Source: Scilla litardierei (Eukaryota; Streptophyta; Magnoliopsida; Asparagales; Asparagaceae). From it: a stretch of 64,000 nucleotides of DNA. Under the pieces are notes generated by a model. That model saw nothing but the letters and a program-made list of their open reading frames with translations. It made no database searches and was not told where the DNA came from. The stretch lies in assembly GCA_030789695.1 (NCBI GenBank), contig CM061142.1, forward strand, positions 569,523,281 to 569,587,280, read 5' to 3'. Within the stretch, counting starts at the first letter, position 1. Each line of letters starts with the position of its first letter. A program made the position numbers and the translations under genes. This document shows, one piece after another, positions 24,835 through 63,267 of the stretch.

Positions 24835-26515
24835 ATAACCCGTGCCCGCGGGCACGGTTCATTTAAGATTTTCCCTTGCGAAATTTTTGTTCCCCGAATT
24901 TTTTTTTTCAAAGCCAAAATTTAAAAGAAAAACAAATTAACTTACAATATTTGGCGGCACAGGCGCCTTTAGCGTAGGTGCCTTCGGTGCGGAATAACAA
25001 ATTCAGCGCATGCGCCTTCGACACAGAACACCAAATTCGACGTGGGTGCCTTCGACGCAGAACAACAAATTCGACGTAAAACAACAATTTCGACGCATGT
25101 GCCTTAGGTGCGGAACAACAAATCAGCGTTAAAAAATGGCGCGGGCGCCTTCGGCGCGGAATAACAAATTCAGCGCATGCGCCTTCGACACAAACACCAA
25201 ATTCGACGTGGGTGCCTTCGGCGCAGAACAACAAACTCCACGTAAAACAACAATTTCGGAGCGGGTGCCTTAGGCAAGGAACAACAAATCAGCGTTAAAA
25301 AGTTTAGCGGGCGCCTTCGGCGCGGGCGCCTATACATATAACACATGCCCGTGTGAAACTGTTCATTTAAAAATCTTGGACCCACTAATTTTAAACAAAC
25401 ATCAATAATTATTAGTTTCCCTTGAAATATCAGTAGATGGGATCGAAATTTTACAGGGTTTTGCAACGCGGATCAATGAGTTGGCAGCATCTCCCGCGTT
25501 CATTCTCTCACAGCTCGCGTCGATTCCCAAGATGAGATTGTGTATGTGCACAACATTTTTTTCATAACTAATATTAAAAGGCTATTCATAAGTTCAATGT
25601 TTTTGTGTATTCCCAACAAATTTCTCTTCAACCCAAAAATTTCCCTCCAAAACTTGATGTGACATTGCCACATAGGACAAATTCAAATTCATTTAAGATT
25701 TTCCTATGCGAAATCGTTGTTCCCCGAATTTTTTTTTCATAGCCAAAATTTAAAAGAAAAACAAATTAGTTTACAATGTTTAGCGGCGTGGGCGCCTTCG
25801 GCGCGGAACAACAAATTCAGAGCATGTGCCTTCGACACAGAACACCAAATTCGATGTGGGTGCTTTCGGCGCAGAGCAACAAATTCGACGTAAAACAACA
25901 ATTTCGACGCGGGTGCCTTAGGCGCAGAACAACAAATCAGCGTTAAAAATGGCGCGGGCGCCTTTAGCGCGGAACAACAAATTCAGCGCATGCGCCTTCG
26001 ACACAGAACACCAAATTCGAAGTGGATGCCTACGGCGCAGAACAACAAATTCGATGTAAAACAACAATTTCGGCGCGGGTGCCTTAGGCGCGGAACAACA
26101 AATCAGCGTTAAAAAATTTAGCTGGCGCCTTCGGCGATGGCTTAATATACATATAACCAGTGCCCTTGGGACACTGTTTATTTAAAAATCTTGGGCCCAC
26201 TAATTTTAAACAAACATCAATAATTATTAGTTTCCCCTGAAATATCAGCAGATGATATCGAAATTTTACAGGGTTTTGCAACGCTGATCAATGAGTTGGC
26301 GGCATCTCCCGCGTTCATTCTTTCACAGCTCGCGTTCATTCCCAAGATAAGATTGTGTGTATGCACAATATTTTTTTCATAACTAATATTAAAAGGCTAT
26401 TCCTAATTTCAATGCTTTTGTGTATTCCCAACAAATTTTTCTTTAACCCAAAAATTTCCCTCCAAAACTTGATGTGACATTGCCACATAGGACAAATTCA
26501 AAATCTGCCCTCAAT
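24835..26515. repeat. Two tandem copies of an ~820-bp repeat with GC hairpin arrays
   Basis: Copy 1 runs from about 24858 to 25687, copy 2 from 25688 to about 26500. Both share TTCATTTAAGATTTTCC, CAAATTCGACGTAAAACAAC and GATGTGACATTGCCACATAG. Each holds internal 25-35-bp repeats of the GGTGCCTTCGGCGCAGAACA type. A perfect palindrome CGTGCCCGCGGGCACG lies at 24841-24856. Minus-strand frames (24908-25466) follow the repeat and are not genes. The ACCCGTGC..GCACGG motif recalls some plant Helitron ends, but I cannot classify it. Confidence 0.7.
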
Positions 26516-36871: not shown

Positions 36872-37231
36872 TGATCGCGCCCCGGATACACGTCCCAGAG
36901 CGACGACACTGTAGTCTTACCGCAAGCGCACGGTGTAGCGGTGAGCGGGTATCGAACACAGGGATGCTTAATAACAGTGTCTACTTTAATCACCTGGCTA
37001 TAGGAAAAGTCGAGAAATGTTCACAAATATGCGGTCACAGTCGTTCAAATGTAATAAAGGAATAACGAATTAATAAAGACGCTTAGGGGATAGGGAGTCC
37101 CCGCTACTTGCCGTATCTCATCATTCTGACTCATAGGTTTCACAATTGCTAGACTTGAAACTTGGGTGAACTAGTTGCAACTAAATGTGGAACCAAGCTC
37201 ACGCTCTCGCGCTATTGTCGGTCTATAGCCA

Positions 37232-37536
37232 ACCTAGGGTAGGGTCCAATCTCTAGCAAACCCTAACCTAGGCAAACTAGCGTGAAGAACAACATCATCG
37301 TTCAATCGTATCTCGAGCCCACTCTCGTGCAAACTCGAGCTACGACCTAGGTTGGGATAGTTCCTACCCGTCCAATCTCTTGCAAACGGGTATTGGTATA
37401 GAATTGCAATCGAAAACCCTAGTTTCGGTCCAATCTCTTGCAAACCGATTCCGGAGAAATTCAATTGCAGCCCAATTCGAATATCTAGGGCTTCATATCG
37501 AATTGGGATCCAATCTCTTGCAAACCCCAATCGATA
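37232..37536 (-). promoter_or_regulatory. Stem-loop cluster, LTR of B (3')
   Basis: Five inverted repeats around TTTGCAAGAGATTGGA or its variant TTTGCACGAGAGTGGG. Stems include TACCCG/CGGGTA and TCGTAGCTCGAG/CTCGAGATACGA. One apical sequence carries a point change (TTTGCTAGAG). The cluster begins about 390 nt downstream of the TATA box, so it would be in the transcript. Confidence 0.85.
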
Positions 37537-37920
37537 TGAATCCCTAGCTATTCGTATTATAGCAATCCCAAACTAACCCTAATCAATCCTAGCAATAGTT
37601 TCACCAATTCATCACAAATCCGAAATTGGGCTCGTTGGATTCATCCCTAAGCCCTAAGAAGATGAACTACTCACAATTCATAATCAAATTCAATAGAAAT
37701 TCACAATCAAAATCAATAGAATTCATTGTTATATTCAAAATATCAATAAAAATGGAGTTTTTGAGAGAAAGAGAGACAAACCAATGAAGAACAAGATAGC
37801 ATCCAACAAAATCTCACTTTTCTCTCCTCTCTAAAAGCTCAATCTAATCCCTAAAAAGTTAATCTAAAAAGGCTGCAAAAGTTCTGAAAAAGGCTCTCTA
37901 AACTAGGTTAAAAACTGGGG

Positions 37921-37927
37921 TTAAATA
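37921..37927 (-). promoter_or_regulatory. TATA box of B 3' LTR
   Basis: TATTTAA on the minus strand in GGGGGGTATTTAACCCC, at the same relative place as in all five Athila-like LTRs. Confidence 0.6.
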
Positions 37928-38009
37928 CCCCCCAAAATCGCCCAAAAAACCCTGACGAAAATGCCCCTGCGCAGCCTTAAAATCGCAGTTTACGCTACAG
38001 GCAGCGCGG

Positions 38010-38400
38010 CTCACTCGGCCGAGTGACAAATGTCACTCGGCCGAGTGACGAACCCTGTACAGAAACAGAGAGTTGGAGGTCTCGGGGGTCGACTTCTCGG
38101 AGGTCACTCGGGCGGACGGCCTTTAGTCACTCGGGCGGACATCCTTTGTCACTCGAGCTGACGTCGATTGTCACTCGGGCGGACCGCGACTCGGAAATTG
38201 TCTGTATAAAAACAGTAAGTCTGGGATTTTTGCTGCTGCCATCTTGATGCCACTCGGGCGAGTGGGTATCCGTGGTTCGGCCGAGTGACATGGCGATACT
38301 CGGCCGAGTGCACGCTGATATAGCTCTGTTGCGTGTCCGATCTGGCCGGCCGAGCGGGATTCCGATGGTCGGCCGAGTGACTCCTTCACTCGGCCGAGTG
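38010..38400 (-). repeat. CACTCGGCCGAGTG palindrome array, B 3' LTR
   Basis: Repeated CTCGGCCGAGTG and CTCGGGCGGAC-type words immediately upstream (in sense) of the TATA box. Confidence 0.85.
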
Positions 38401-38700
38401 AAATACTCAAAGTGCCCAAACTTCATATTTTCGCCTCCTCGTCGCTCCTACGACGTTCTTAATTTCCTCTTCCACTCCTCTCCAATCGCGGAATACCCCT
38501 CAAGAGAGTTGTCGGTGACACTCCGGAGTGGGTGCATCTCAGAATCACTCCAAATCGCTCCAAATCTCCTGAAATACGACAAAAACAACAAATCGTGAAA
38601 AAGCATCGCAATATTGTCGAATAAACGTGAAAAACACGATTTGAGCGATCTAAATGGCATGCAAACATGCAGAAAAAAGGTGTAAAATACGGAGTGATCA

Positions 38701-42716: not shown

Positions 42717-43009
42717 TGATCACTCCTTATTTTACACCTTTTTTCCGCATGATTGCATGCCATTCAGATCGCTCAAATCACGCTTTTCACGATTTATCGA
42801 CAATATTGCGATACTTTTCACGATTTGTTGTTTTTGTCGTATTTCAGGAGATTTGGAGCGATTTGGAGTGATCCCCTGATACGCCTACTCCAGAGTGTCA
42901 CCGATGACCTCCCCGAGGGGTATTTTGCTATTGGAGAGGAGCGGAAGAAGAAACAACGTCGCAGGAGCGACGAGGAGACAAAAACAAGCTGTTTGGGCAT
43001 TTTTGGTGT

Positions 43010-43410
43010 CTCACTCAGTCGAGTGAAGGAGTCACTCGGCCGACCAGCGAGACACCGCTCGGCCGACCAGATCGGACACGTTTCATGTGTGCATTCGGCC
43101 GAGCGTCGGAAGCCACATCGGCCGAGTGACGAGACTCCGTCCGCCCGAGTGGCACTCAGACGACGCCCATCAAAAAGTGCCAACTTACTGTTTTTCGTCT
43201 GCCTGAGCTTCAAAAGACCCACTCGGCCGAGTGGAAAATGCCGACCGCCCGAGTACATAGAAGCCATCGGCCGAGTGACGACAACTCACTCGGCCGAGCC
43301 ACCCCCGAAGCGAAGACCCCCGAAGACCAAGACTTACTGGAAATTCTCAGGGTTTGTCACTCTGCCGAGCGACTTTTGTCACTCGGCCGAGTGCGACGCA
43401 CTGCCTGTAG
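43010..43410 (+). repeat. CTCGGCCGAGTG palindrome array, A 5' LTR
   Basis: More than ten CTCGGCCGA or close words, including the 14-bp perfect palindrome CACTCGGCCGAGTG, between about 470 and 70 bp upstream of the TATA box. Confidence 0.88.
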
Positions 43411-43477
43411 CGTAAATTGCGATTTTCAGGCTGCGCAGGGGCATTTTGGTCACAGTTTTTTGGACGATTTTGGGGGG

Positions 43478-43484
43478 TATTTAA
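43478..43484 (+). promoter_or_regulatory. TATA box of A 5' LTR
   Basis: TATTTAA within GGGGGGTATTTAACCCC. The same sequence occurs in the 3' LTR at 52346-52352. Confidence 0.6.
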
Positions 43485-43872
43485 CCCCAGTTTTTAACCT
43501 AGGTTGGAGAGATTTTTTCTTTACTTTTTGCAGCTTTTTAGATAAAACTTTTTAGCTTTAGATTTTTGTGATTGGAGAGGAGAGAAAAGTTTATTTTTGT
43601 TGGATTCTTGGAGAACTCTATTGGTTTGTCTCCCTCTCCATTAAAAACCTCATTTTTATTGCTTATTTGAATATTGTGATGAATTCTCTTGTTATTTCCA
43701 TTGTTTATTCGTGCATTTGTGATATGAATTGTGAGTAGTCTATACGTCATGGGGCGTGGGGATGAACCCTACGAGCCCAATTTCTTATTTGTGATGATTG
43801 GGTAGAAATATTGCTAGAATTGCTATTAGGGTTAGTTTGGGATCGACTTACTACGGATAGCTAGGTGTTCAT

Positions 43873-44175
43873 ATCGATTGGGATTTGCAAGAGATTGGAT
43901 CCCAATTCGATAGGAAACCCTAGAAATCCGAATTGGGTTGAAATTGAGTTTCCGTAGTATCGGTTTGCAAGAGATTGGACCGATACTAGGGTTCTCGGTT
44001 GCAATTCCATACCGATACCCGTTTGCAAGAGATTGGACGGGTAAGAACTATCCCAACCTAGGTCGTGGCCCGAGTTTGCACGAGAGTGGGCTCGGGGCGC
44101 GATTGAACGATGATGTTGATCCTAATGCTAGCTTGCCTAGGCTAGGGTTTGCAAGAGATTGGACCCAAACCTAGG
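43873..44175 (+). promoter_or_regulatory. Stem-loop cluster, A 5' LTR
   Basis: Five hairpins. Constant parts at 43884-43899, 43964-43979, 44022-44037 and 44148-44163 are TTTGCAAGAGATTGGA; 44075-44090 is TTTGCACGAGAGTGGG. Flanking stems are ATTGGGA/TCCCAAT, AGTATCGG/CCGATACT, TACCCG/CGGGTA, CCCGAG/CTCGGG and CCTAGG..GGG/CCC..CCTAGG. The constant part can itself pair (CAA/TTG or CAC/GTG) around a GAGA loop. Confidence 0.9.
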
Positions 44176-44549
44176 ATAGCTATAGACCGGCAACAGCGCG
44201 AGAGCGTGAGCTAGGTTTTACATTCAGTTGCAACTAGTTCATCCGAAATTCTACCCTAGCAATGTTGATACCAATGAATCACATTGACGAGATACGGTGA
44301 GTAGCGGGGATTCCCCATTCCCTAGGCGTCTTTATTTGATTTGATATCTCCATATTTTGTCTGACGATTGTGACAGGATCGCCAAAAGGCAAATTCCCTC
44401 TTTTCTGTTCATATAGCCAGGTTGATTGGAGCAGGCACTTTCATTCGTCCTCCCTGTGTTCGATAACCCGCTTGCCGCTACACCGTGCGCTTGCGGTAAA
44501 ACTACAACCGTCGCTCCGGGACGTGTATCCGGGGTGCGATCAAGTTTTT

Positions 44550-44567
44550 TGGCGCCGTTGCCGGGGA
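44550..44567 (+). other. Primer-site copy inside the A LTR
   Basis: TGGCGCCGTTGCCGGGGA, preceded by GATCAAG, as at the real primer site. The 3' LTR has the same copy at 53419-53436. Confidence 0.85.
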
Positions 44568-44636
44568 CTTATCTCCGTGTAATTTGCGCCATACTAGGTT
44601 GTGCTCTTGGGTTGCATTTTGAAGCGATCAAGTTTT

Positions 44637-44654
44637 TGGCGCCGTTGCCGGGGA
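44637..44654 (+). other. Primer binding site of element A (tRNA-Asp)
   Basis: TGGCGCCGTTGCCGGGGA, complementary to the 3' end of plant tRNA-Asp, six bases after the LTR end. Confidence 0.85.
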
Positions 44655-44772
44655 GGCGATAGTGTTTGATCTTACCACCCTAGCCATTTCTTTCTTTTTG
44701 TTTTGTTTCTTTATTTTTTATCTAACCCTTCCATTGTGCTAATCACTTCTTTAAAACTTTGTTTTCCCGTGC

Positions 44773-46395
44773 ATGTACACGAGATCCACTGCGGACCCCA
44801 TTGATATATTGTTTGATCCTGAGATCGAGCGTACATTGCGGAGAATCAGAGCGGAGAGGAGACCCGATACGGAAGGGAGGTTTATGAACGTCCGGGAGAC
44901 GCCTGAAGAGTTAGTGGCAAGAATGGCGAGGATTATTTCTATTCGAGATAGGCTCCGGCCTAAGACCTCCTCCACGACCTCGTCCATAGCCATGCCGGAG
45001 TTGGCGGCCGACAAGAATTTTGAGCTGAAGATTGGACTAGTGGTTCTGATGCAGCAGGATCCATTTCATGGGAATGCCCATGAAAATCCCCACTACCACA
45101 TCCAGCTATTTTTGTCGAAGTGCGCCACATTTCAGATGACGGGAGTCTCCATCGATGCCATCAGACTGCGCCTCTTCCCCTTCACATTAAAGGATAAAGC
45201 TCTTTATTGGTTGAGGACGCAAGCTGAGGGAGTCTTTACCACATGGGATGGGTTGGCAAGCGCGTTCATTGACAAGTTCTATCCGCCTTCCAAGACGTTA
45301 AAGATTAGGAGTGCTCTTATGTCCTTCAAGCAAGGACCTCAAGAGACGCTCTATGAGGCTTGGGAGCGTTTCAAAGACCTGCAGCATCAGTGCCCGCACC
45401 ATAGCATTGAAGATTGGGAGCTAGTCCATAGCTTCTACAATGGTCTCCAACCGGGGACCAAGCAGATTATTGATGCCGCGGCAAATGGTGCCATCCTATC
45501 GAAGACTCCCGACGAAGCTACGGCCCTAATTGAGGAGATGGCCTCAAACAATCAACAATGGGGCGATGAGCGAGGACACTCTACGTCCTCCTTGAAGCCA
45601 TCTAGCATCTATGAAGCAAAGGCCGTAGCGGAGCTGACAAACAAGTTCGATTCTCTCCACAAGGTGGTGGAGAGATTGGAGAAGTATATCACGAAGCCCC
45701 AAGGAACCCCTTCCACATCCGCACCAACGAATCAAATGTGTGATTGGCAAGACCAATCTCAAGCTATGTATTTGGGAGGAGAGCAAGGAGAGGGATCCTT
45801 GGAGCAAGTTCAATATGTCACGGGGAACCAAGGATATTGGACCAATCCGGCCACTAGAAACCATCCCGGTTTCTCATATGCCAACAATGAAGGAGCGTTG
45901 AACCCGTCGCAACAACCACCTCAACAAGCTCGACCACCACCGCAACCACAACATTATCCTCCGAGGGGGCCTCCACAACAAAATTTCACACCAAAGCAAC
46001 AAGTTGGACCCTATAGGCCCCCCGGATACTATCAAGGGTGGAGAAATCCAAACCCTCAACAAGCTCAACAACGATCCGAATTTGAAGCTAAAGTGGAGGA
46101 GTTTATGGTCGAGCAAAAGAAGATAAATGCCTCCTTGAAGGCGGGCCAAGACTCCCTTACAACCGTTGTAGCCCAAATCTCGGAGCAATTGGCGTTGCTC
46201 AATCGAAATACTCAACAATTGCCGGCACAACCCGAGCAAAACCCACGGGGCGCCACCGGCCACATCAATGCAGTGGTTGCCGTTACAACTAGAGGCGGGA
46301 AGGATACCACCCCCGCCATGATTCCTACCGATGAGCCCGTGGAGGAGAATGTAGAGCCAATTGAGCCGGTCATTGAAGTTGAGAGGGAGAAATAG
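44773..46395 (+). CDS. gag: Element A Gag
   Basis: A 540-residue frame starting 118 nt after the primer site. The middle has the retrotransposon gag domain (LFPFTLKDKALYWLRTQAEG, FIDKFYPPSKTLKIRSALMS, HSFYNGLQPGTKQIIDAAAN), as in Athila elements. The C-terminal half is Pro/Gln-rich with a coiled-coil-like stretch (KVEEFMVEQKKINASLKAGQ). No CCHC knuckle is seen. It would form the particle shell in the cytoplasm. It ends at a TAG, but the same frame continues without another stop into protease for over 1.1 kb, so Gag and protease form one frame split by one stop. Confidence 0.88.
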   Translation: MYTRSTADPIDILFDPEIERTLRRIRAERRPDTEGRFMNVRETPEELVARMARIISIRDRLRPKTSSTTSSIAMPELAADKNFELKIGLVVLMQQDPFHGNAHENPHYHIQLFLSKCATFQMTGVSIDAIRLRLFPFTLKDKALYWLRTQAEGVFTTWDGLASAFIDKFYPPSKTLKIRSALMSFKQGPQETLYEAWERFKDLQHQCPHHSIEDWELVHSFYNGLQPGTKQIIDAAANGAILSKTPDEATALIEEMASNNQQWGDERGHSTSSLKPSSIYEAKAVAELTNKFDSLHKVVERLEKYITKPQGTPSTSAPTNQMCDWQDQSQAMYLGGEQGEGSLEQVQYVTGNQGYWTNPATRNHPGFSYANNEGALNPSQQPPQQARPPPQPQHYPPRGPPQQNFTPKQQVGPYRPPGYYQGWRNPNPQQAQQRSEFEAKVEEFMVEQKKINASLKAGQDSLTTVVAQISEQLALLNRNTQQLPAQPEQNPRGATGHINAVVAVTTRGGKDTTPAMIPTDEPVEENVEPIEPVIEVEREK

Positions 46396-47535: not shown

Positions 47536-48749
47536 TTGAAAATCAAAGGGGGTCGAGCTCACGACCTTAAACGAGCGCTTGTCGGGAGGCAACCCGACGG
47601 CTATCGCTTTATTTTTACTTTTTCTTTTATTTTTGTTTTAGAAATTATTAGTGTTTTGAGTCGTTCGCCTAAAAATTTCGTGATAACGGGTCCTATTTTT
47701 CTTTGACAGGAGAGGAGAACAAGGTACCTATCATTAGGAGGATGAACAAGGCGACGAGGAGCGCTCCAGGAAGGCGCTCGATGCTTAGGAGGAAGATGAA
47801 ATCGACTGGAGGAAGAAAAACAGAGTTTAGAGCCCAAACGAAGACAAACAGCAGAAAATAGGGTTCACTCGGCCGAGTATACTAGTCACTCGGCCGAGCT
47901 CACAAGTTCGTCCGCCCGAGCGGCTCACGAACGAGGGAAGTCTGCTGTACCCAACTCTCTGTTTATTTTCTTGATTTCAGTATAATTGCTACTCGGCCGA
48001 GTATATATATTCACTCGGCCGAGTAAAACTGATACACTCCTAGGGCGAGTCTTGCCGAGTAGCTTGAGCCACTTGGCCGAATGGACTTACTCCATTCGGC
48101 CGAGGGTGGCAAGGCCACTCGGCCGAAGCGTAAGCGGGGAGGAATTTTTCCGTCGAGTTCACTCGGCCGAGCGACATAGTCACTCAGCCGAGTCGTAACT
48201 TTTTCTATAAAAGGGGGAGCGGGACAACGCGGTTTTCGAAACGAAAAAAATCCCAAAACCCTCGACTATCCGTATCCCTCGCCCGCAGCTTCCCCCTCAC
48301 TCGCCCGACCTCGACCCTCGCCGCGGTGCTCGGCCACCCACCGCCGGCCGAGCTTCCTCCGCCTCCGCCCGAGTCGCCGCCGGCGGCCACACCTCCGGCC
48401 AACTCCGGTAACGCCTTATTCGCCCTATTTTCTCCTCTCTCTCGTATTTCTTGACGATCCATGTGTCTAACGAACCCCAAACCCAAATTAAATTCAATTT
48501 CTATCTATTATACCCATAAGCCCCCATACGTTTTGAATATTACTCGCTGATATCTCCGTTTGATATGCAGGGTATATTGGGGAGCTTAGGGGAGCCCAGG
48601 GGAGCTTCCGGGGATTGTTTTGGGCTACGTGGAGGCGTCGTCTTCGCACGCTTCCATTACTTTGCTCTCGCAGCGTGTCGTGGTATACTCTTTCCTTTAT
48701 TTTACGCACGCCACATTTTTATTGCTTTTGGTGAGCACCCGGGGCCCAC
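47536..48749 (+). other. Spacer of element A between protease and ORF2
   Basis: At 47555-47600 lies a motif conserved between pol and ORF2 in Athila-type elements (AACGAGCGCTTGTCGGGAGG with a GTCGGG..CCCGAC hairpin). Acceptor-like TTTCTTTGACAG is near 47710 and TGATATGCAG near 48570. More CTCGGCCGAGTG palindromes lie at 47866-48195. No frame is convincing. Confidence 0.65.
47866..48195 (+). repeat. Internal CTCGGCCGAGTG array of element A
   Basis: About ten copies or close variants of the LTR palindrome, outside the LTR, upstream of the ORF2 remnant. Confidence 0.85.
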
Positions 48750-51584: not shown

Positions 51585-51876
51585 TGATCACTCCTTATTT
51601 TACACCTTTTTTCCGCATGATTGCATGCCATTCAGATCGCTCAAATCACGCTTTTCACGATTTATCGACAATATTGCGATACTTTTCACGATTTGTTGTT
51701 TTTGTCGTATTTCAGGAGATTTGGAGCGATTTGGAGTGATCCCCTGATACGCCTACTCCAGAGTGTCACCGATGACCTCCCTGAGGGGTATTTTGCTATT
51801 GGAGAGGAGCAGGAGAAGAAAGAACGTCGCAGAAGCGACGAGGAGGTAAAAACAAGCTGTTTGGGCATTTTTGGTG

Positions 51877-52262
51877 TCTCACTCGGCCGAGTGAAGGAGT
51901 CACTCGGCCGACCAGCGAGACACCGCTCGGCCGACCAGATTGGACACGTTTCATGTGTGCATTCGGCCGAGCGTCGGAAGCCACATCGGCCGAGTGACGA
52001 GACTCCGTCCGCCCGAGTGGCACTCAGACGACGCCCATCAAAAAGTGCCAACTTACTGTTTTTCGTCTGCCTGAGCTTCAGAAGACCCACTCGGCCGAGT
52101 GGAAAATGCCGACCGCCCGAGTACATAGAAGCCATCGGCCGAGTGACGACAACTCACTCGGCCGAGCCACCCCCGAAGTGAAGACCCCCGAAGACCAAGA
52201 CTTACTAGAAATTCTCAGGGTTTGTCACTCGGCCGAGCGACTTTTGTCACTCGGCCGAGTGC
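51877..52262 (+). repeat. CTCGGCCGAGTG palindrome array, A 3' LTR
   Basis: Same array as in the 5' LTR, upstream of the TATA box at 52346-52352. Confidence 0.88.
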
Positions 52263-52741
52263 GACGCGCTGCCTGTAGCGTAAATTGCGATTTTCAGGCT
52301 GCGCAGGGGCATTTTGGTCACAGTTTTTTGGACGATTTTGGGGGGTATTTAACCCCAGTTTTTAACCCAGGTTAGAGAGTTTTTTCCTTTACTTTTTGCA
52401 GCCTTTTAGATTAAACTTTTTAGCTTTAGATTTTTTGTGATTGGAGAGGAGAGAAAAGTTTATTTTTGTTGGATTCTTGGAGAACTCTATTGGTCTGTTT
52501 CCCTCTCCATTAAAAACCTCATTTTTATTGCTTATTTGAATATTGTGATGAATTCTCTTGTTATTTCCATTGTTTATTCTTGCATTTGTGATATGAATTG
52601 TGAGTAGTCTATACGTCTTGGGGCGTGGGGATGAACCCTACGAGCCCAATTTCTTATTTGTGATGATTGGGTAGAAATATTGCTAGAATTGCTATTAGGG
52701 TTAGTTTGGGATCGATTTACTACGGATAGCTAGGTGTTCAT

Positions 52742-53045
52742 ATCGATTGGGATTTGCAAGAGATTGGATCCCAATTCGATAAGGAAACCCTAGAAATCCG
52801 AATTGGGTTGAAATTGAGTTTCCGTAGTATCGGTTTGCAAGAGATTGGACCGATACTAGGGTTCTCGGTTGCAATTCCATACCGATACCCGTTTGCAAGA
52901 GATTGGACGGGTAAGAACTATCCCAACCTAGGTCGTGGCCCGAGTTTGCACGAGAGTGGGCTCGGGGCGCGATTGAACGATGATGTTGATCCTAATGCTA
53001 GCTTGCCTAGGCTAGGGTTTGCAAGAGATTGGACCCAAACCAAGG
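52742..53045 (+). promoter_or_regulatory. Stem-loop cluster, A 3' LTR
   Basis: Same five hairpins as in the 5' LTR. The last one has one stem base changed (CCAAGG for CCTAGG). Confidence 0.88.
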
Positions 53046-53504
53046 ATAGCTATAGACCGGCAACAGCGCGAGAGCGTGAGCTAGGTTTTACATTCAGTTG
53101 CAACTAGTTCATCCGAAATTCTACCCTAGCAATGTTGATACCAATGAATCACATTGACGAGATACGGTGAGTAGCGGGGATTCCCCATTCCCTAGGCGTC
53201 TTTATTTGATTTGATATCTCCATATTTTGTCTGACGATTGTGACAGGATCACCAAAAGGCAAATTCCCTCTTTTCTGTTCATATAGCCAGGTTGATTGGA
53301 GCAGGCACTTTCATTCGTCCTCCCTGTGTTCGATAACCCGCTTGCAGCTACACCGTGCGCTTGCGGTAAAACTACAACCGTCGCTCCGGGACGTGTATCC
53401 AGGGTGCGATCAAGTTTTTGGCGCCGTTGCCGGGGACTTATCTCCGTGTAATTTGCGCCATACTAGGTTGTGCTCTTGGGTTGCATTTTGAAGCGATCAA
53501 CAAC

Positions 53505-54675
53505 TCCCCTAGAGATTTCGGCTGCAAAAGTTTTGATTCTCCTTTTTGTTGCCTCGTGAGTTATGGCATGCACATGGAGCCTGCAAAAGAAAAGGTCACA
53601 AGAGTAATAAATAAGATAAATAAAATATTAATTACAAAGGGCCTTCTTTATTAATCCCAGGAAGTTGTGTAATGCAGTTGGCCTTTGTATTGATCAAAGC
53701 TCTTTTGATTAACTCCCCTGGTATCAACGAGGTGCTCCTAGTTGTCTTTTATGGGCCTGCTCTTCAAGATCTTGCTCCTTTTTGTTCTTTGTGGTCAATG
53801 CCTTGAACAACTTTGTGATTAAACAACTTTCCCTTGATCTCTCAATGCCAGCCTGCTATCCTGTAAAACAAAGAAAGAGCAAAGCTCATGAAATAATAAA
53901 GAAACCTGAAGCTTGGAGACTCACGGATCTCTGTTGCGGCTGATTGGAGTTTTTGACCAAAAAAAATCCGGTTGCTTCCTCTCAAAAAAATCAATGGAGA
54001 GTTAAAAAGAGGTGGAGATCTGTGTATGGCTTCTTTTCAAAAGATTGGAAATTTGCAACAACGAAACAGGAAAAGAAAATGTGTACTAGCTCCCCAAAGA
54101 AATACTAGCGGATGCACTAGAAGGCCGGCTCTTGCGTGAGTTCTCAAACCCTAAGTGCGCACCTACCCTTTATATAAATGATTCGGTGCTTGGTTTCTCT
54201 TTCAGGCGCTAGGGTATTAATGATACCAAAAAAAGAATTAGGCTTGTGCCAAAAAATGTGCAGACTTACTGATTTTTATAGGCCGCAGGTTTTACAACAA
54301 AAGATGGGCTCTTAGGGGATTTTGTTATGGTCTTTTGGAATTATTTAAAAAAGAGATTAGTGCACTCAATTGAGGGATTTATTAAAAAAATATTATAATG
54401 AATCTTGCCCCTGCTGCGTGTGGCATTCATCCTCCTTTTTGTTTTTTTTGTGCTAGGCTTTTCAAAAGGAGGTGGCAATTAATCAAAAAGATGTCCTCTC
54501 CTAGGAATATTATTTCGGGCTCTCCTTTGGGATTGCAATAGGAACGTGCGCAGACTCCCCTCTCTCCTTTATACATTGACCAAGTCAATTTTGCCGTGTG
54601 CCTAGCAATATCTCCATCTTGTATGTGTATTGCAACTTGTCAAACACATTAATATACGTTCTCGCCATTCCTGCA
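53505..54675 (+). mobile_element. Insert C, right part
   Basis: Resumes after the TSD of element A and ends about CATTCCTGCA, where element B gag begins. AT-rich with no coding sequence. The flanks of C do not form a TSD (AGGTG on the left, CGGCC on the right). Confidence 0.5.
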
Positions 54676-55746
54676 CGGCCCAATATCCAGAATTCCCCGT
54701 GATGTATTGAACTTGCTCCAAGGCTCCTTCTCCTTGCTCTCCTCCTACATACATGGCTTGGGATTGGTCTTGCCAATCACTCATATGATTTGTAGGCGTG
54801 GGTGTAGAAGGGGCTCCTTGAGGCTCCGTAATGAATTTCTCCAATCTCTCCATAACCTTATGGAGAGAATCAAACTTGCTAGAAAGCTCCGCCACGGCCT
54901 TGGCCTCATAGATACTTGTGGGCTTCAAGGAGGATGAAGAATGTCCTCGCTCGTCCTCCCATTGTTGGTTGTTCGAGGCCATCTCCTCAAGCAAGGCCGT
55001 AGCTTCATCGGGAGTCTTTGACAAAATGGCTCCATTTGCGGTGGCATCAATAATCTGCTTCGTGCCCGGTTGGAGTCCATTGTAGAAACTATGGACAAGC
55101 TCCCAATCCTCAATGCTATGATGGGGGCATTGGTGTTGCAAGTCCTTGAAGCGCTCCAATGCTTCATAGAGAGTTTCTTGTGGTCCTTGCTTAAAGTACA
55201 TGAGAGCACTTCTTATCTTCATCGTCTTAGAGGGCGGGTAAAATTTGTCGACGAAGGCACTCTCCAATTCATCCCAAGTGGTGAAGATTCCTTCAGCTTG
55301 TGTCCTCAACCAATATAATACCTTGTCCTTGAGTGTGAAAGGGAAGAGGCGCAGTCTGATAGCATATATGGAGATGCCCGGCATCTGGAAGGTGGCACAT
55401 TTGATAGGAAGAGCTGGATGTGGTAATGAGGGTTTTCATGGGAGTTCCCATGAAAAGGGTCTTGTTGCATAAGGACCACCAATCCGGTCTTCAATTCGAA
55501 ATTTTTGTCGGCCGCCAACTCCGGCATAGCTATGGACGAGGTCGTAGAGGAAGTCTTAGGCCGAAGCCTATCTCTTATGGAAATGATCCTCGCCATTCGA
55601 TCCGCCAAGCCTTCGGGTGTCTCAGGTTCGGTCATAAAATTCCCTCCCGTATCAAGTCTCCTATCCGCTCGGATCCTCCTCAACGTACGCTCGATCTCCG
55701 GATCGTATAGTATTTCTTCGGGGTTCGCCGAGGATCTTGTGTACAT
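54676..55746 (-). pseudogene. gag: Element B gag, truncated and frameshifted
   Basis: Met at 55746 (MYTRSSANPEEILYDPEIER) matches the start of element A Gag. A one-base shift near 55375 separates it from the frame 55384-54602, which carries the gag domain (LFPFTLKDKVLYWLRTQAEG) and stops matching Gag at about 54680, at the border with insert C. Confidence 0.88.
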
Positions 55747-55876: not shown

Positions 55877-56241
55877 AAAACTTGATCGCGCCCCGGATAC
55901 ACGTCCCAGAGCGGCGACACTGTAGTCTTACAGCAAGCACACGGTGTAGCGGCGAGCGGGTATCGAACACAGGGATGCTTAATAACAGTGTCTTCTTCAA
56001 TCACATGGCTATAGGAAAAGTCGAGAAATGTTTGCAAATATGCGGTCACAGTCGTTCAAATGTAATAAAGGAATAACGAATTAATAAAGACACTTAGGGG
56101 ATAGGGAGTCCCCGCTACTTGCCGTATCTCATCATTGTGAATCAAAGGTTTCACAATTGCTAGACTTGAAACTTGGGTGAACTAGTTGCAACTAAATGTG
56201 TAACCAAGCTCACGCTCTCGTGCTATTGCCGGTCTATAGCC

Positions 56242-56548
56242 AACCTAGGGTAGGGTCCAATCTCTTGCAAACCCTAACCTAGGCAAACTAGCGTGAAGAA
56301 CAACATCATCGTTCAATCGTATCTCGAGCCCACTCTCATGCAAACTCGAGCTACGACCTAGGTTGGGATAGTTCCTACCCGTCCAATCTCTTGCAAACGG
56401 GTATTGGTATAGAATTGCAATCGAAAACCCTAGTTTCGGTCCAATCTCTTGCAAACCGATTCCGGAGAAATTCAATTGCAACCCAATTCGAATATCTAGG
56501 GCTTCCTATCGAATTGGGATCCAATCTCTTGCAAACCCCAATCGATAT
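56242..56548 (-). promoter_or_regulatory. Stem-loop cluster, B/D LTR
   Basis: Five hairpins as in the other LTRs. The variant loop here reads TTTGCATGAGAGTGGG, in which CAT can still pair with GTG through a T-G wobble. Confidence 0.87.
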
Positions 56549-57019
56549 GAATCCCTAGCTATTCGTATTATAGCAATCCCAAACTAACCCTAATCAATCC
56601 TAGCAATAGTTTCACCAATTCATCACAAATCCGAAATTGGGCTCGTAGGGTTCATCCCTAAGCCCTAAGACGATGAACTACTCACAATTCATAATCAAAT
56701 TCAATAGAAATTCACAATCAAAATCAATAGAATTCATTGCTATATTCAAAATACCAATAAAAATGGAGTTTTTGAGAGAACGAGAGACAAACCAATGAAG
56801 AACAAGATAGCATCCAACAAAATCTCACTTTTCTCTCCTCTCTAAAAGCTCAATCTAATCCCTAAAAAGTTGATCTAAAAAGGCTGCAAAAGTTCTGAAA
56901 AAGGCTCTCTAAACTAGGTTAAAAACTGGGGTTAAATACCCCCCAAAATCACCCAAAAAACCCTGACGAAAATGCCCCTGCGCAGCCTTAAAATCGCAGT
57001 TTACGCTACAGGCAGCGCG

Positions 57020-57390
57020 GCTCACTCAGCCGAGTGACAAATGTCACTCGGCCGAGTGACGAACCCTGTACAGAAACAGAGAGTTGGGGGTCTCGGGGGT
57101 CAACTCCTCGGAGGTCACTCGGGCGGACGTCCTTTGTCACTCGGGCGGACGTCGATTGTCACTCGGGCGGACCGCGACTCGGAAATTGTCTATATAAAAA
57201 CAGTAAGTCTGGGATTTTTGCTGCCGCCGTCTTGATGCCACTCGGGCGAGTGGGTATCCGTGGTTCGGCTGAGTGACATGGCGATACTCGGCCGAGTGCA
57301 CGCTGATATAGCTCTGTTTCGTGTCCGATCTGGCCGGCTGAGCGGGCTTCCGATGGTCGGCCGGGTGACTCCTTCACTCGGCCGAGTGAA
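57020..57390 (-). repeat. CTCGGCCGAGTG palindrome array, B/D LTR
   Basis: Same motif set as the other LTRs, upstream of the TATA box in sense. Confidence 0.85.
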
Positions 57391-57684
57391 ATACTCAAAG
57401 TGCCCAAACTTCATATTTTCGCCTCCTCGTCGCTCCTACGGCGTTCTTTCCTCTTCCACTCCTCTCCAATCGCGGAATACCCCTCAAGAGAGTCGTCGGT
57501 GACACTCCGGAGTGGGTGCATCTCAGAATCACTCCAAATCGCTCCAAATCTCCTGAAATACGACAAAAACAACAAATCGTGAAAAAGCATCGCAATATTG
57601 TCGAATAAACATGAAAAACACGATTTGAGCGATCTAAATGGCATACAAACATGCAGAAAAAAGGTGTAAAATACGGAGTGATCA

Positions 57685-59639: not shown

Positions 59640-61326
59640 GCTGCGCCATCTTCGTCCTGAGGCGGAGGTGGGGGTGGTGGCGGCTAGGTAACAGTCTGCT
59701 GGGTGGGTGGTGGTGGGGGTGGTGGGCGTAGAACTGTCTGCTGGGTGGATGGTGGTCGTGGCAGTCACTCGAGGATCTGGGTCAGGCAAAAGTGAATGCC
59801 GGGAAGTAGCTCGAGGCGGTGCTGCATGGCGGTGACTGTGGAAGACAGAGCCCTAAAATCGCCCCGTAGTCCACTCATCGCCCCCTCAAGAGCGTGAACG
59901 CTCTGAACTAAGGCGTCAGGGGGTGGTGGAGCGGAGGGACGAATAGGTCTAGGCTGAGCAGGTCGGGGCTGTCTAATACGGGCAGTGTAGGTGATCGGGA
60001 CAGCAGTCATGGGTCGAAGGGTGATGTGCTCACTAGTGGATGTCCAGCCTCAGTGCGAGGCTGGGACGCAGGCTGGTATGAGGTGGAAGCAGCAGCAGTG
60101 GGAGTGGAAGACAAAATCGGTGACGAGGCAGCGAGAGAGGTCAGTGACATAGACGTGGGAACAGACGTCACGACACTCTCAGATAGGACGGCTGCCGTGG
60201 AGACAGAAAGGTCAACCACTGTGGAGGAAGTGTGGGATCCAAAAGGTGAAACCCCAGCGGAGATCAAAGTGGATAGGGTCTCCACGACGGAAGTGAAGGA
60301 AGGCTCGTCGCTCTCAAGTATGGTGGGTGGACGCTCGGGTAGCAGAGAGGTGAGTGGCTCAATCGACAGGGGCACAGCAGTGGTGGTCTTAGGCGTGGTG
60401 GAAGGCGTGGTGGTAGGCTCAGCAAGTGTACTCCTGACACTGGCAGAAGTGGGGACAGAAGTGTCGGGAGCGACAGAAAGTGCAGGCTCAGGCTGAGGTA
60501 ACACAGGGTCTACAGGTGCAGTGGGTGCCTGCTCAGCCTCCTCGGTCTCAAGCACGTAGGCGGCAGGGATCAGGAGATCCATCGCTGAAAGCCAGTCCTC
60601 GTGTGCTGGTCCGATGTGTGTCCGAGCGGGGCTCGGAAGGATCATGTAGTCAGCACCGAATGGACCGTGCAACCATACCCAGTGCCGCTGGCCATGCGGA
60701 CGAAGCATCTTCATCCGGGCCATGACGTCTATCGAGAGTGAAGTAGGGCCCGAAGGTCGACGCAGGTCGGCCGGTAGGTCCTCGCCGGTCATCAGAGCTA
60801 GCAGGGTGATCAGGCCGCCGCAACATATCGGGGAGCGAGCGCCCACTGACACAATGATGCGGTCCAAAAACCAGCTAGCGACGTCAATCTCAACGGCGGG
60901 GACCATCGTAACATCATCCCTATCAAGAACTCTGGGGCGAGTCATCGCGTAGAGCATATAGAGCTCAGGTGTCGACATCGTCCCAGGCTCGTACCTCGCT
61001 AGAAAGGTGGTCGCCATAAGGCGCTGTGCTATGCGGAGGCAGGGGTGGACTATGGCCGAGGCCTTGGCCCTACTAGGGTCAAAGGCCGGTGGGAAACCCG
61101 TGATCCTGGCCCAAAAGGCGTGTGAATCGAAAGATGGGGGAGGGATGTGTGTTGGGGCGTAGGCTCGGTCGGGTGTGGGGACTGCGGGCCACTGAAAGAA
61201 CGCTCGAAGCATATCGAGAGTGATCTGACACTCTCGATCCATAAGTCGAAAGGAGCATCCCTCAGCGGTCCGGGCGATCGAGCTGAGTACCTCGAGTGTC
61301 AGACGGATGTAAGTGTCTGTCGACAC
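59640..61326 (-). pseudogene. Element D ORF2 (Athila-type 3' ORF, function unknown)
   Basis: The longest copy: 439 residues from Met 61326 to TGA 60007, then a second frame beginning in the ATGA overlap (60010) with coiled-coil-like and polyproline parts. Residues 20-250 form a conserved domain (ITLDMLRAFFQWPAVPTPD, LRIAQRLMATTFLARYEPGT, GGLITLLALMTG) resembling the Athila ORF-1 or putative plant transposon protein family. Residues 270-439 are Ser/Thr/Pro-rich. Athila relatives carry an ORF here whose role is not established; some authors call it envelope-like, but no signal peptide or membrane segment is visible. The true N-terminus may lie upstream beyond element E. Confidence 0.75.
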
Positions 61327-61776
61327 GGAAAGAAAATTTCGCTAACCCACGTTGTCGTACAACGTGAGCATCCCCTCGAGTACCTGATTAGCCCCGGATA
61401 TACACCCGGAGAACGATTGTAGTTTTACCGCAAGCGCACTGTCAAGTGGCGAGCGGCTATCGAACACGAGGAGGTGGTGTCGGTTCCAATCTATCCTAGG
61501 TTGGTTTGACTACGAATGTTTTATTGGTGGAGATGGCTATGGTATGATATAATGGAAATGGTGGTGGATGTCGGTGTCGGTGATAAAGAAATCGGTCAAA
61601 TATCGATTCAAATACAATATAATAAAAATGTCTAGGGCTAGGGAATTCCCACTACGGATCGTCATACATCATCGTAAATAGTGAATCTCAATATTACTAG
61701 ACTTGCATTGAGGTGAACTAGTCGTAACTGAATATAGAACCAAGCTTACGCTCTCGTGCTATTGCCGGTCTATAGC

Positions 61777-62082
61777 AACCTAGATTAGAGCCCAATCTCT
61801 TGCAAACCCTAACCTAAGCCACTAGCATGAAGATCGACGTCATCGTTCAATCGCTCCTCGAGCCCACTCTCGTGCAAACTCGAGTTACGATCTAGGTTGT
61901 GATAGTTCGTATTCGTCCAATCTCTTGCAAACGAATATGGGTATAGATTTATAATTAAAAATCCTAGCTTTGGTCCAATCTCTTGCAAACCAAATCTAGA
62001 GAAACCCAATTGTAAACCTAAATCGAATATCTAGGCCTTCCCATCGATTAGAATCCAATCTCTTGCAAACCCCAATCGATGG
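61777..62082 (-). promoter_or_regulatory. Stem-loop cluster, E LTR
   Basis: Five hairpins with diverged but still paired stems: TATTCG/CGAATA, TAGATTTGG/CCAAAGCTA, CCATCGATTGGGG/TTCTAATCGATGG (with G-T pairs), CTCGAG/CTCGAG, and CTTAGGTTAGGG/CTCTAATCTAGG (with G-T pairs). Confidence 0.88.
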
Positions 62083-62544
62083 AAATCCCTAGCTATCCGT
62101 AATAAATCAATCACAACCTAACCTCCTAGCAATTCTAGCAATTTAGAAATTCATTCATCACAAATCTGAAATTAGATCCATAGGGTTCATCCCCATGCCC
62201 TAGAACAACAAATCTACTCTAGCATAGCAATAAGGATATAAGAATCAATAAAAACTATAACTTGCATACAAAAAGATACCAAATCAAAGATTCAAAGAAT
62301 AAGAACAAAGATACTTAGCTTTGATGAAGAATTCCAATCCAAATACAAGCTTTTTGATCAAGAGGGGGCCTAGGGCATGGCCTAACCTCTAAAATAATCA
62401 ATAAGAAAACATCTTGGAACCCCCCTCAATGACGGCTACAAACCCTCTTAAATAGCCCCCAAAACCCTACCAAAACTGCCTAAAAAGCCCCTGAAATTCG
62501 GGCCCAAAACTAAATCTGCGCGTGCCCAGAAATCTGCGCCAGTT

Positions 62545-62960
62545 ACGACTCGGCCGAGTGGAAATCTCACTCGGTCGAGTGGAAATCTCACTCGGTCGAG
62601 TGGACAGCTCACTCGGTCGAGTGGAAATCTCACTCGGTCGAGTGAGCTTTCCTACAGAAACTCCAGAAAACAGCACTCTGTCAAAACTGTCAAAAACTGT
62701 CAAAAACTGGTCACTCGGCCGAGGGGCTTTTGGAACTCGGCCGAGTCGGAGCTCGTAGTCGACTGACAGATTACAGAGAGTTGGACATTTTGGCTTGTCG
62801 TCGTCTGGGTGCCACTCGGGAGGACGGAGTCTCCGCACTCGGCCGAGTGGGCGTGCGATGCTCGGCCGAGTGCACGCTGATACATCTCTGTTGCGTGTCC
62901 GATCTGGCCGGCCGAGCGGGGTCTCAATGCTCGGCCGAGTGACTCCTTCACTCGGCCGAG
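62545..62960 (-). repeat. CTCGGTCGAGTG / CTCGGCCGAGTG array, E LTR
   Basis: Includes five tandem copies of a roughly 24-bp unit CTCACTCGGTCGAGTGGAAAT at 62545-62650, upstream of the TATA box in sense. Confidence 0.88.
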
Positions 62961-63267
62961 TGGCATGCTGAAAATGCCCAATCTCCATCTTTTTGCTTCC
63001 TCGTCGCTCCTACGACGATCTTTCTTCTTCCACTCGTCTTCCATTGCAGAATAACCCTCAAAAGGGCCATGGTTGACACTCCGGAGTGGGTGCAAATCCT
63101 TTAAGCTCATTTTTGCTCCCGATCGCTCCATATTTCCTGAAATCCGACAAAAACAAGAAATAGTGAAAAGCACCGCAATATTGTCGAATAATCTTGAAAA
63201 ACGCAATATGAGCAATCGAAATGGCGTGAAAACATGCGGAAAAAAGGTGTAAAATATGGTGTGATCA

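Follow-up and report, generated by a model that had tools for sequence, protein, structure and literature searches.

A sense-strand-conserved array of GAGA-capped hairpins in Athila-group LTRs of Scilla litardierei

Each of the five long terminal repeats (LTRs) in a 64,000-nt stretch of the Scilla litardierei genome (the window) carries a cluster of short inverted repeats that frame nearly the same sequence. The question raised by this locus is whether these repeats are kept as folded RNA and, if so, what the folded RNA is for. An earlier note on the same DNA had read the cluster as a set of stem-loops under selection for RNA structure.

The hairpin array and its host elements

Every one of the five LTRs has five copies of a 16-nt core, TTTGCAAGAGATTGGA or a variant with at most three mismatches, where the earlier note placed them, and every copy is framed by inverted repeats. 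The cores lie at 43884, 43964, 44022, 44075 and 44148 and at 52753-53018 on the plus strand, and at 37509-37245, 56520-56256 and 62054-61791 on the minus strand. In the 5' LTR of element A (LTR A5, plus strand), hairpin H1 (43854-43930, apex core 43884-43899) has a minimum free energy of −34.6 kcal/mol for 43850-43930 (z −6.2), and its pairs are conserved. It is followed by H2 (43942-44000, core 43964-43979, z −5.1 for 43945-43999), H3 (44016-44043, core 44022-44037, z −3.1), H4 (44061-44104, core 44075-44090, z −4.8), which has a CAC-GAGA-GUG variant of the apex, and H5 (44129-44182, core 44148-44163, z −3.4). All five hairpins of A5 fold 3.1-6.2 standard deviations below dinucleotide shuffles. 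Comparison of cores and pairing finds this array again in the 3' LTR of element A (52723-53052, plus strand) and, on the minus strand, in LTR B5 (56237-56565), LTR B3 (37226-37554) and LTR E (61772-62099).

In the predicted apex, UU pairs with GA, and a two-base UG bulge is followed by a 3-bp helix capped with a GAGA tetraloop (UUUG-CAA-GAGA-UUG-GA). Each near-constant apex sits on its own, different stem, with five stems per array. The minimum-energy fold of H4 draws a slightly different apex, and the CAC/GUG option was retained there. The stem sequences and family differences quoted in the earlier note are present (TACCCG/CGGGTA in A and B, TATTCG/CGAATA in E), but H1 and H2 extend further than it stated. 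H1 reaches to CGGAT/ATCCG, with one pair that is G-C in A, A-U in B and G.U in E, and the outer extensions of both H1 and H2 also covary. The E-type H3 stem (UU/AA) has 9215 exact copies in the genome.

The framing of the cores is not matched by chance occurrences of the same sequence. All 25 cores in the window have six to eight of eight flanking positions paired, whereas 29 copies of the 16-mer in viral contigs, taken as chance matches although some are copies of one another, pair at a mean of 3.1 of eight positions and none of the 29 reaches six.

Sequence comparison groups the five LTRs into three families, A (two LTRs), B (two) and E (one). The presence of the cluster in five Athila-like LTRs thus stands, but these are not five independent observations, since the LTRs at 43.9k and 52.7k are the pair of one element, those at 37.2k and 56.2k belong to one family (96.7% identity across 5.2 kb including the LTRs) and E is separate. 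Element A has its 5' LTR at 42717-44630 and its 3' LTR at 51585-53499 (both on the plus strand and recognised by sequence comparison and the target site duplication ACAAC); flanked on both sides by B-type sequence, it was probably inserted there. LTRs B5 (55883-57684), B3 (36872-38700) and E (about 61392-63267) have their arrays on the minus strand, and E is a 3' LTR, since a purine-rich tract lies immediately upstream of it. We further note that, within 36872-61009, LTR B5 looks shared, bordered on one side by B-type internal sequence and on the opposite side by a primer site and gag, an arrangement that recombination between two copies could leave. Elsewhere in the window, 24858-26505 holds a tandem pair of copies of about 830 bp that are 89% identical and contain inner repeats.

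The host elements can be placed in the Athila group of Ty3/gypsy on their domains and primer site. An ATHILA ORF-1 domain (Pfam PF03078, E 1.4e-7) at 60007-61326 on the minus strand, upstream of and beside LTR B5, supports this placement, along with PF03732 in the gag of both A and B and a tRNA-Asp-type primer site, TGGCGCCGTTGCC, at 44637. The gag ORF of element A (44773-46395, plus strand) matches Pfam Retrotrans_gag at 2.6e-19 and has no CCHC zinc knuckle.

Selection on pairing in the sense strand

With the fold of A5 alone (100 pairs) as the reference, we scored the fate of its pairs in the other families. In E, 73 pairs are the same, 25 are changed and two are gapped (98 scored). Six of the changed pairs differ on both sides and still pair, 16 differ on one side and still pair, and three are broken, compared with 20.05 broken pairs expected from an equal number of substitutions drawn from the spectrum of unpaired sites (none of 4000 simulations broke so few). 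In B, 14 pairs are changed, four of them on both sides, and three are broken against 11.6 expected. From A to E, Watson-Crick pairs on the sense strand became G.U 13 times and A.C once, while the same test on the antisense fold gives no G.U and 13 A.C and breaks 15 pairs where 19.1 are expected (P 0.09). Double changes exceed the null on the antisense strand as well, because a compensatory change pairs on either strand, and for this reason only the wobble count separates the two.

The exact 16-mer occurs 139,488 times in the same genome (3.68 Gb, 7266 contigs) and the reversed pattern not once. One hundred listed places, all on contig 1, fall in 38 arrays, and at about 2.6 listed cores per array we estimate roughly 50,000 arrays or LTR copies genome-wide. 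Under the first match rule, 37 of the 38 fetched arrays have all five cores and one (L064) has four; the spacing of the cores in genomic arrays is nearly fixed at 80, 57-58, 53 (45 in one) and 71-73. Twenty further E-type arrays, also from contig 1, were added, and the tree-based test used 60 arrays, namely 55 of the 58 genomic ones (L076, L152 and L159 were left out for spacing or as partial) and the five of the window. The four-core array is outside the 42-array counts given below and, under a looser core match, inside the 60-array test.

Internal branches of the tree have 124 changed pairs, 13 of which are double compensatory changes against 1.1 expected, and 26 of the 124 are broken compared with 79.8 of 157.5 in the null (0.21 vs 0.51). 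On these branches the sense array gained 49 G.U and 13 A.C, against 53.9 and 38.5 in the null. Terminal branches behave like neutral sequence, with 186 changed pairs, one double change (null 1.3) and 99 broken pairs (null 96.2 of 178.7). We infer that changes on internal branches arose in replicating lineages and that those on terminal branches mostly reflect the decay of copies already inserted. Leaving out the extra E-type copies (42 arrays) gives a concordant result with either A5 or E as the reference. Breakage on internal branches is 8 of 38 in H1, 12 of 45 in H2, 0 of 6 in H3, 6 of 23 in H4 and 0 of 15 in H5, in a run where random tie-breaks give 11 double changes instead of 13; H2 has five double compensatory changes on internal branches.

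The LTR sequence on either side of the array, tested with its own A5 fold, has no significant signal on internal branches. The 5' flank (26 copies) has one double change against 1.0 and 33 broken pairs against 38.2 (P 0.13), and the 3' flank (41 copies) has no double change against 1.3 and 53 broken pairs against 61.0 (P 0.07). When the array is folded in antisense, there are nine doubles against 1.2, and 60 of 107 changed pairs are broken against 87.7 of 142.5 (0.56 vs 0.62); this fold beats its null, yet keeps pairing far less than the sense fold. Pairing kept on internal branches beyond a tree-aware null, flanks without a significant signal, a weaker antisense fold and tolerance of G.U but not of A.C, as found in conserved structured RNA, together indicate that selection acts on the folded sense RNA. 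The array is almost certainly a folded RNA under selection, and the earlier proposal to this effect has thus passed the larger alignment of 60 arrays together with the strand, flank and dead-copy comparisons.

Analysis of the rate of change within the array separates letters from pairs. On internal branches UUUG and GAGA each change 0.05 times per site, the apical helix 0.33, GA 0.50, the outer stems 0.85 and the spacers 1.35 times; each sampled array needed at least one exact core, so the core rates are somewhat lowered by the sampling. The unpaired letters of the apex hardly change, while the stems drift with pairing maintained. Among 42 arrays, the apical pairs of H4 are CAC/GUG in 30, CAA/UUG in eight, CAU/GUG in three and UAA/UUG in one, and those of H5 are CAA/UUG in 30 and CAC/GUG in eight, with four other combinations once each, of which that of B3 breaks the middle pair. 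Coordinated switches among CAA/UUG, CAC/GUG and CAU/GUG in H4 and H5 support the GAGA-capped helix suggested earlier, and the concerted switching of the third apical pair implies that the helix is conserved as pairing, and the bulge and loop as sequence.

A strict per-pair test in the manner of R-scape gives a weak signal. Across the 42 arrays, two of 118 pairs have E < 0.05, both being the third apical pair that switches in H4 and H5, and none does at the all-pairs level. This test has little power because there are few independent subfamilies, and its result speaks against over-reading single pairs.

Place in the RNA and a second lineage

A TATA-like TATTTAA at 43478-43484 (plus strand) lies 406 nt before the H1 core, as the distance in the earlier note had it, and 10 of 11 genomic arrays have TATTTAA or TATATAA 383-407 nt upstream of theirs. 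The primer-binding site of element A, TGGCGCCGTTGCCGGGGA at 44637-44654 (plus strand, by sequence match), is one that we take to be of tRNA-Asp type. In the genomic arrays the primer site follows the start of the H5 core by 393-432 nt in six of 11 and by 834 nt in one, and it was not found within the fetched stretch in the other four. Lying between a conserved TATA box and the primer site, about 0.4-0.7 kb past the TATA box, the array is expected to form part of the 5' leader of the genomic RNA, and perhaps to be also in the 3' end of the RNA if the poly(A) site is downstream.

The leader of element A is about 1.3 kb from the TATA box to the gag ATG and contains 10 upstream ATGs. An upstream ORF between H4 and H5 is seen in A, B and E; with its ATG at the matched codon in only 24 of 60 arrays, under a loose match, we rejected it as a conserved feature. 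The A LTR holds its own copy of the primer-binding site (about 44550) and some 80 nt beyond it (44547-44660 and 53416), an arrangement suggestive of an LTR that has extended across the primer site; the real site comes after it, at 44637.

The U3 regions have a different repeat. A palindrome, ACTCGGCCGAGT, recurs upstream of the TATA box in all five LTRs, each of which has 5 to 11 copies when up to two mismatches are allowed (for example at 43221, 43381, 52249, 57046 and 62548-62950), and it is also found at 47867-48182. The window has 35 copies at up to one mismatch, compared with 0.3 in shuffles. These repeats resemble the clustered motifs of Sirevirus LTRs, which are DNA palindromes with a CGG-CCG core upstream of the TATA box (PMC2829016, seen in part); the hairpin array shares with the latter the clustering of repeated motifs in plant LTRs and is otherwise unlike them.

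Gag sequences found through a coffee relative (30 loci among the 80 matches listed) led to other families with the same type of primer site in the same genome. Twenty-four of the 30 loci have a usable leader, the remainder (L101, L105, L113, L118, L120 and L122) being without a usable primer site, and 18 of these 24 leaders form one group by nucleotide similarity, here called lineage 2. This lineage was recognised by reading the L116 leader; a screen of 9-mer loop words gave a hint, and the scan with the fixed core missed it. Many of its leaders have hairpins such as CCTATC-ATGCATCAC-GAGA-GTGGGG-GATAGG about 310-340 nt before the primer site, and the core of this hairpin has 88 exact genomic copies. 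GAGA tetraloops on at least four pairs number 14 in the 18 leaders, compared with 0.6 in shuffles, and a stricter 3-pair rule leaves 10, in seven of the 18 leaders, against 0.8. Under the 3-pair rule, five of the 18 (L106, L108, L110, L121 and L127, all decayed copies) have no GANA-capped hairpin. Six leaders of other families, a third group of four and two singletons (L103, L114, L123, L125, L111 and L129), likewise have none, which indicates that not all relatives need the array.

Twenty of the 88 copies, chosen for hairpin 6, have up to six GAGA-capped hairpins in a row on other stems, with all six in L146. By our reading of the alignment, three of the hairpins carry UAGC-type loops in one lineage-2 subfamily, and L102-like copies have GACA or AAAA. 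The pairing tests, from which L133, L135 and L144 were dropped and in which L110 and L118 were not entered, again show selection on pairing on internal branches, with seven double changes against 1.8 and 72 broken pairs against 101.6. Over all branches, double changes are 27 against 10.8, and broken pairs (380 against 369) are not below the null; three of 128 pairs covary in the per-pair test.

We also note that Rfam snoR71 (RF00097) matches the antisense of a conserved gag domain in both lineages, at 45301-45407 (minus strand), 55113-55219 (plus strand) and L109 2006-2112 with 48, 55.6 and 46.7 bits, and at L117 2021-2124 with 34.2 bits, below threshold. It may be that snoR71 is a stretch of retrotransposon gag misread as a snoRNA, or that gag harbours a snoRNA gene.

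What the array may bind

The fixed bulge and tetraloop, repeated five or six times on stems that drift and remain paired, suggest an array of protein-binding sites, and the second lineage, with GAGA-capped hairpins on other stems, counts in favour of recognition sites. The UAGC, GACA or AAAA loops of some lineage-2 subfamilies, the leaders that have no GANA-capped hairpin and the weak per-pair covariation count against this reading. The constant unpaired letters of the apex would be a binding surface shown repeatedly on scaffold stems, and the five to six apices of an array would give avidity to a protein. That the array is a set of multivalent protein-binding sites we consider probable. Its position in the leader near the primer site makes Gag and packaging the first candidate, and the element's own Gag is predicted to read the array as a packaging signal in the 5' leader RNA; packaging by Gag as the role of the array is a serious possibility at somewhat below an even chance, and the choice of Gag rather than a host RNA-binding protein as partner is the least certain element. 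Taken whole, the explanation by leader protein-binding sites, conserved on the sense strand and predicted to act as a Gag packaging signal, has in our judgement an even chance of being right.

Retroviral Gags use a CCHC zinc knuckle. Where their relatives carry it, the Gags of A (44773-46395) and B (54602-55384) have MCDWQDQSQAMYLGG and MSDWQDQSQAMYVGG, respectively, and the knuckle is absent from both and from L174, the one readable copy of five tried. It is present in 67 of 91 relatives of at least 380 aa among those listed, in 10 of 18 lineage-2 loci and in 16 of all 30 gag loci. Recognition of the apex by the Gags of A and B would thus need another surface, and a packaging signal read by a zinc-knuckle Gag, as in retroviral psi, does not describe A, B or L174.

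The missing knuckle of A and B also fits a host RNA-binding protein as the partner, with the array acting as a transport or stability element for unspliced RNA. Some retroviruses carry constitutive transport elements, and repeated identical apices are typical of RNA transport elements. A GAGA cap common to two lineages with diverged Gags would likewise suit a shared host partner; however, nothing links the array to a host factor and no such hairpin is found in the six other-family leaders of the same genome, and we consider this reading rather unlikely. The array might instead shape gag translation, with ribosomes getting past a structured leader rich in upstream ORFs by shunting or internal entry. 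The long leader of element A with its many upstream ATGs should be difficult to traverse by plain scanning, and plant pararetroviruses use shunting, but shunting needs one stem and not five constant apices, and the ORF between H4 and H5 is not conserved in position. An effect on translation is thus improbable as the reason for the array.

Dimerisation through kissing of the palindrome TTGCAA, one of the roles considered in the earlier note, is disfavoured by the same apical switches that support the helix. TTGCAA is present in four of the five A apices, and Ty1 dimerises through kissing loops (PMC5454406, seen in part). However, 33 of 42 arrays in H4 and at least 10 of 42 in H5 are without it, having CAC, or CAU, UAC or UAU, with GUG and retaining the 3-bp helix, and the lineage-2 apices are without it; the 42 arrays have no conserved self-complementary loop, and we rejected a kissing-loop site as very unlikely. 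That the hairpins are kept as Dicer substrates in a small-RNA precursor is more improbable still, as the constant part is the loop and not an arm and the arms differ among hairpins, against which there is a weak resemblance of H1 to MIR5565 (20.2 bits vs a gathering threshold of 80, E 0.13). Inverted repeats acting in DNA, as cruciforms or factor-binding palindromes, or arising by chance, would be in keeping with palindrome-rich LTRs whose U3 has arrays of ACTCGGCCGAGT. On the sense strand, however, G.U is kept and A.C removed (13:1 from A to E, and 49:13 on internal branches vs 53.9:38.5 in the null), and chance fails on the flanking pairs (0 of 29 vs 25 of 25 with at least six of eight); both were rejected on these grounds and retain a negligible probability.

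A leader array of protein-binding sites, the reading that we prefer, has partial counterparts in known systems. Retroviral psi hairpins include the GAGA loop of HIV-1 SL4 and the GACG loops of MLV. The array is like psi in having small constant tetraloops on stems in a 5' leader near the primer site, and psi is read by Gag; it is unlike psi in that psi has a few different hairpins and a zinc-knuckle Gag, while here five to six hairpins share one apex and the Gags of A and B are without the knuckle. The Ty1 TIPIRT domain, a leader domain for packaging and dimerisation with hairpins needed for packaging and with compensatory mutants, is a likeness in kind, as it consists of 5' RNA hairpins of an LTR retrotransposon; as far as the available text goes, it differs in being a pseudoknot with two kissing hairpins, without identical GAGA-capped apices, in a member of Ty1/copia (PMC5454406). 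For the barley element BARE, also Ty1/copia and so of another superfamily, conserved packaging and dimerisation signals are discussed, and the accessible account names no hairpin or stem-loop (0 occurrences; PMC3735527). Retrozymes are similar in having a functional RNA structure within plant LTRs, but theirs is a self-cleaving hammerhead ribozyme in a small non-autonomous element (PMC4918200, available in part); the Rfam search gave no ribozyme match in the array.

No match to an Rfam family at or above its gathering threshold was obtained in the array or in the lineage-2 array loci L138 and L146. In the literature searched, mainly open-access and partly in abstract or excerpt, we found no description of such a hairpin array in plant LTRs, and a literal search for the core sequence matched work that, by title and abstract, is on other subjects. 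The terms 'stem-loop' and 'secondary structure' are both absent from the accessible text of a 2025 review on plant LTR retrotransposons (PMC12786077), and an LTR modelling study, likewise seen in part, reports that plant Metaviridae LTRs could not be modelled (PMC3601003). Viral contigs had nothing usable for a double core, the primer site or gag, and genome contigs had no double core. The primer-site search of genome contigs returned L031, a match inside a bacterial ORF, and L030, a plant-like sequence without the array. The latter, a 3.9-kb Streptomyces clavifer record (BMWJ01000030.1), resembles a plant LTR retrotransposon with the same primer site and no ORF of at least 120 aa, and is a probable contamination.

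We tentatively propose, at a little under an even chance, that the hairpins constitute an undescribed RNA family, in which old GAGA-capped arrays in two deep Ty3/gypsy lineages of one plant represent a multivalent recognition code that survived the loss of the Gag knuckle. The contrast between internal and terminal branches indicates that dead copies can supply an internal neutral comparison when transposons are examined for RNA structure. How RNA is chosen for packaging in plant Ty3/gypsy elements seems little known, and the hairpin array, under strong selection and constant at its apex, is a definite candidate open to testing in elements so abundant in plant genomes.
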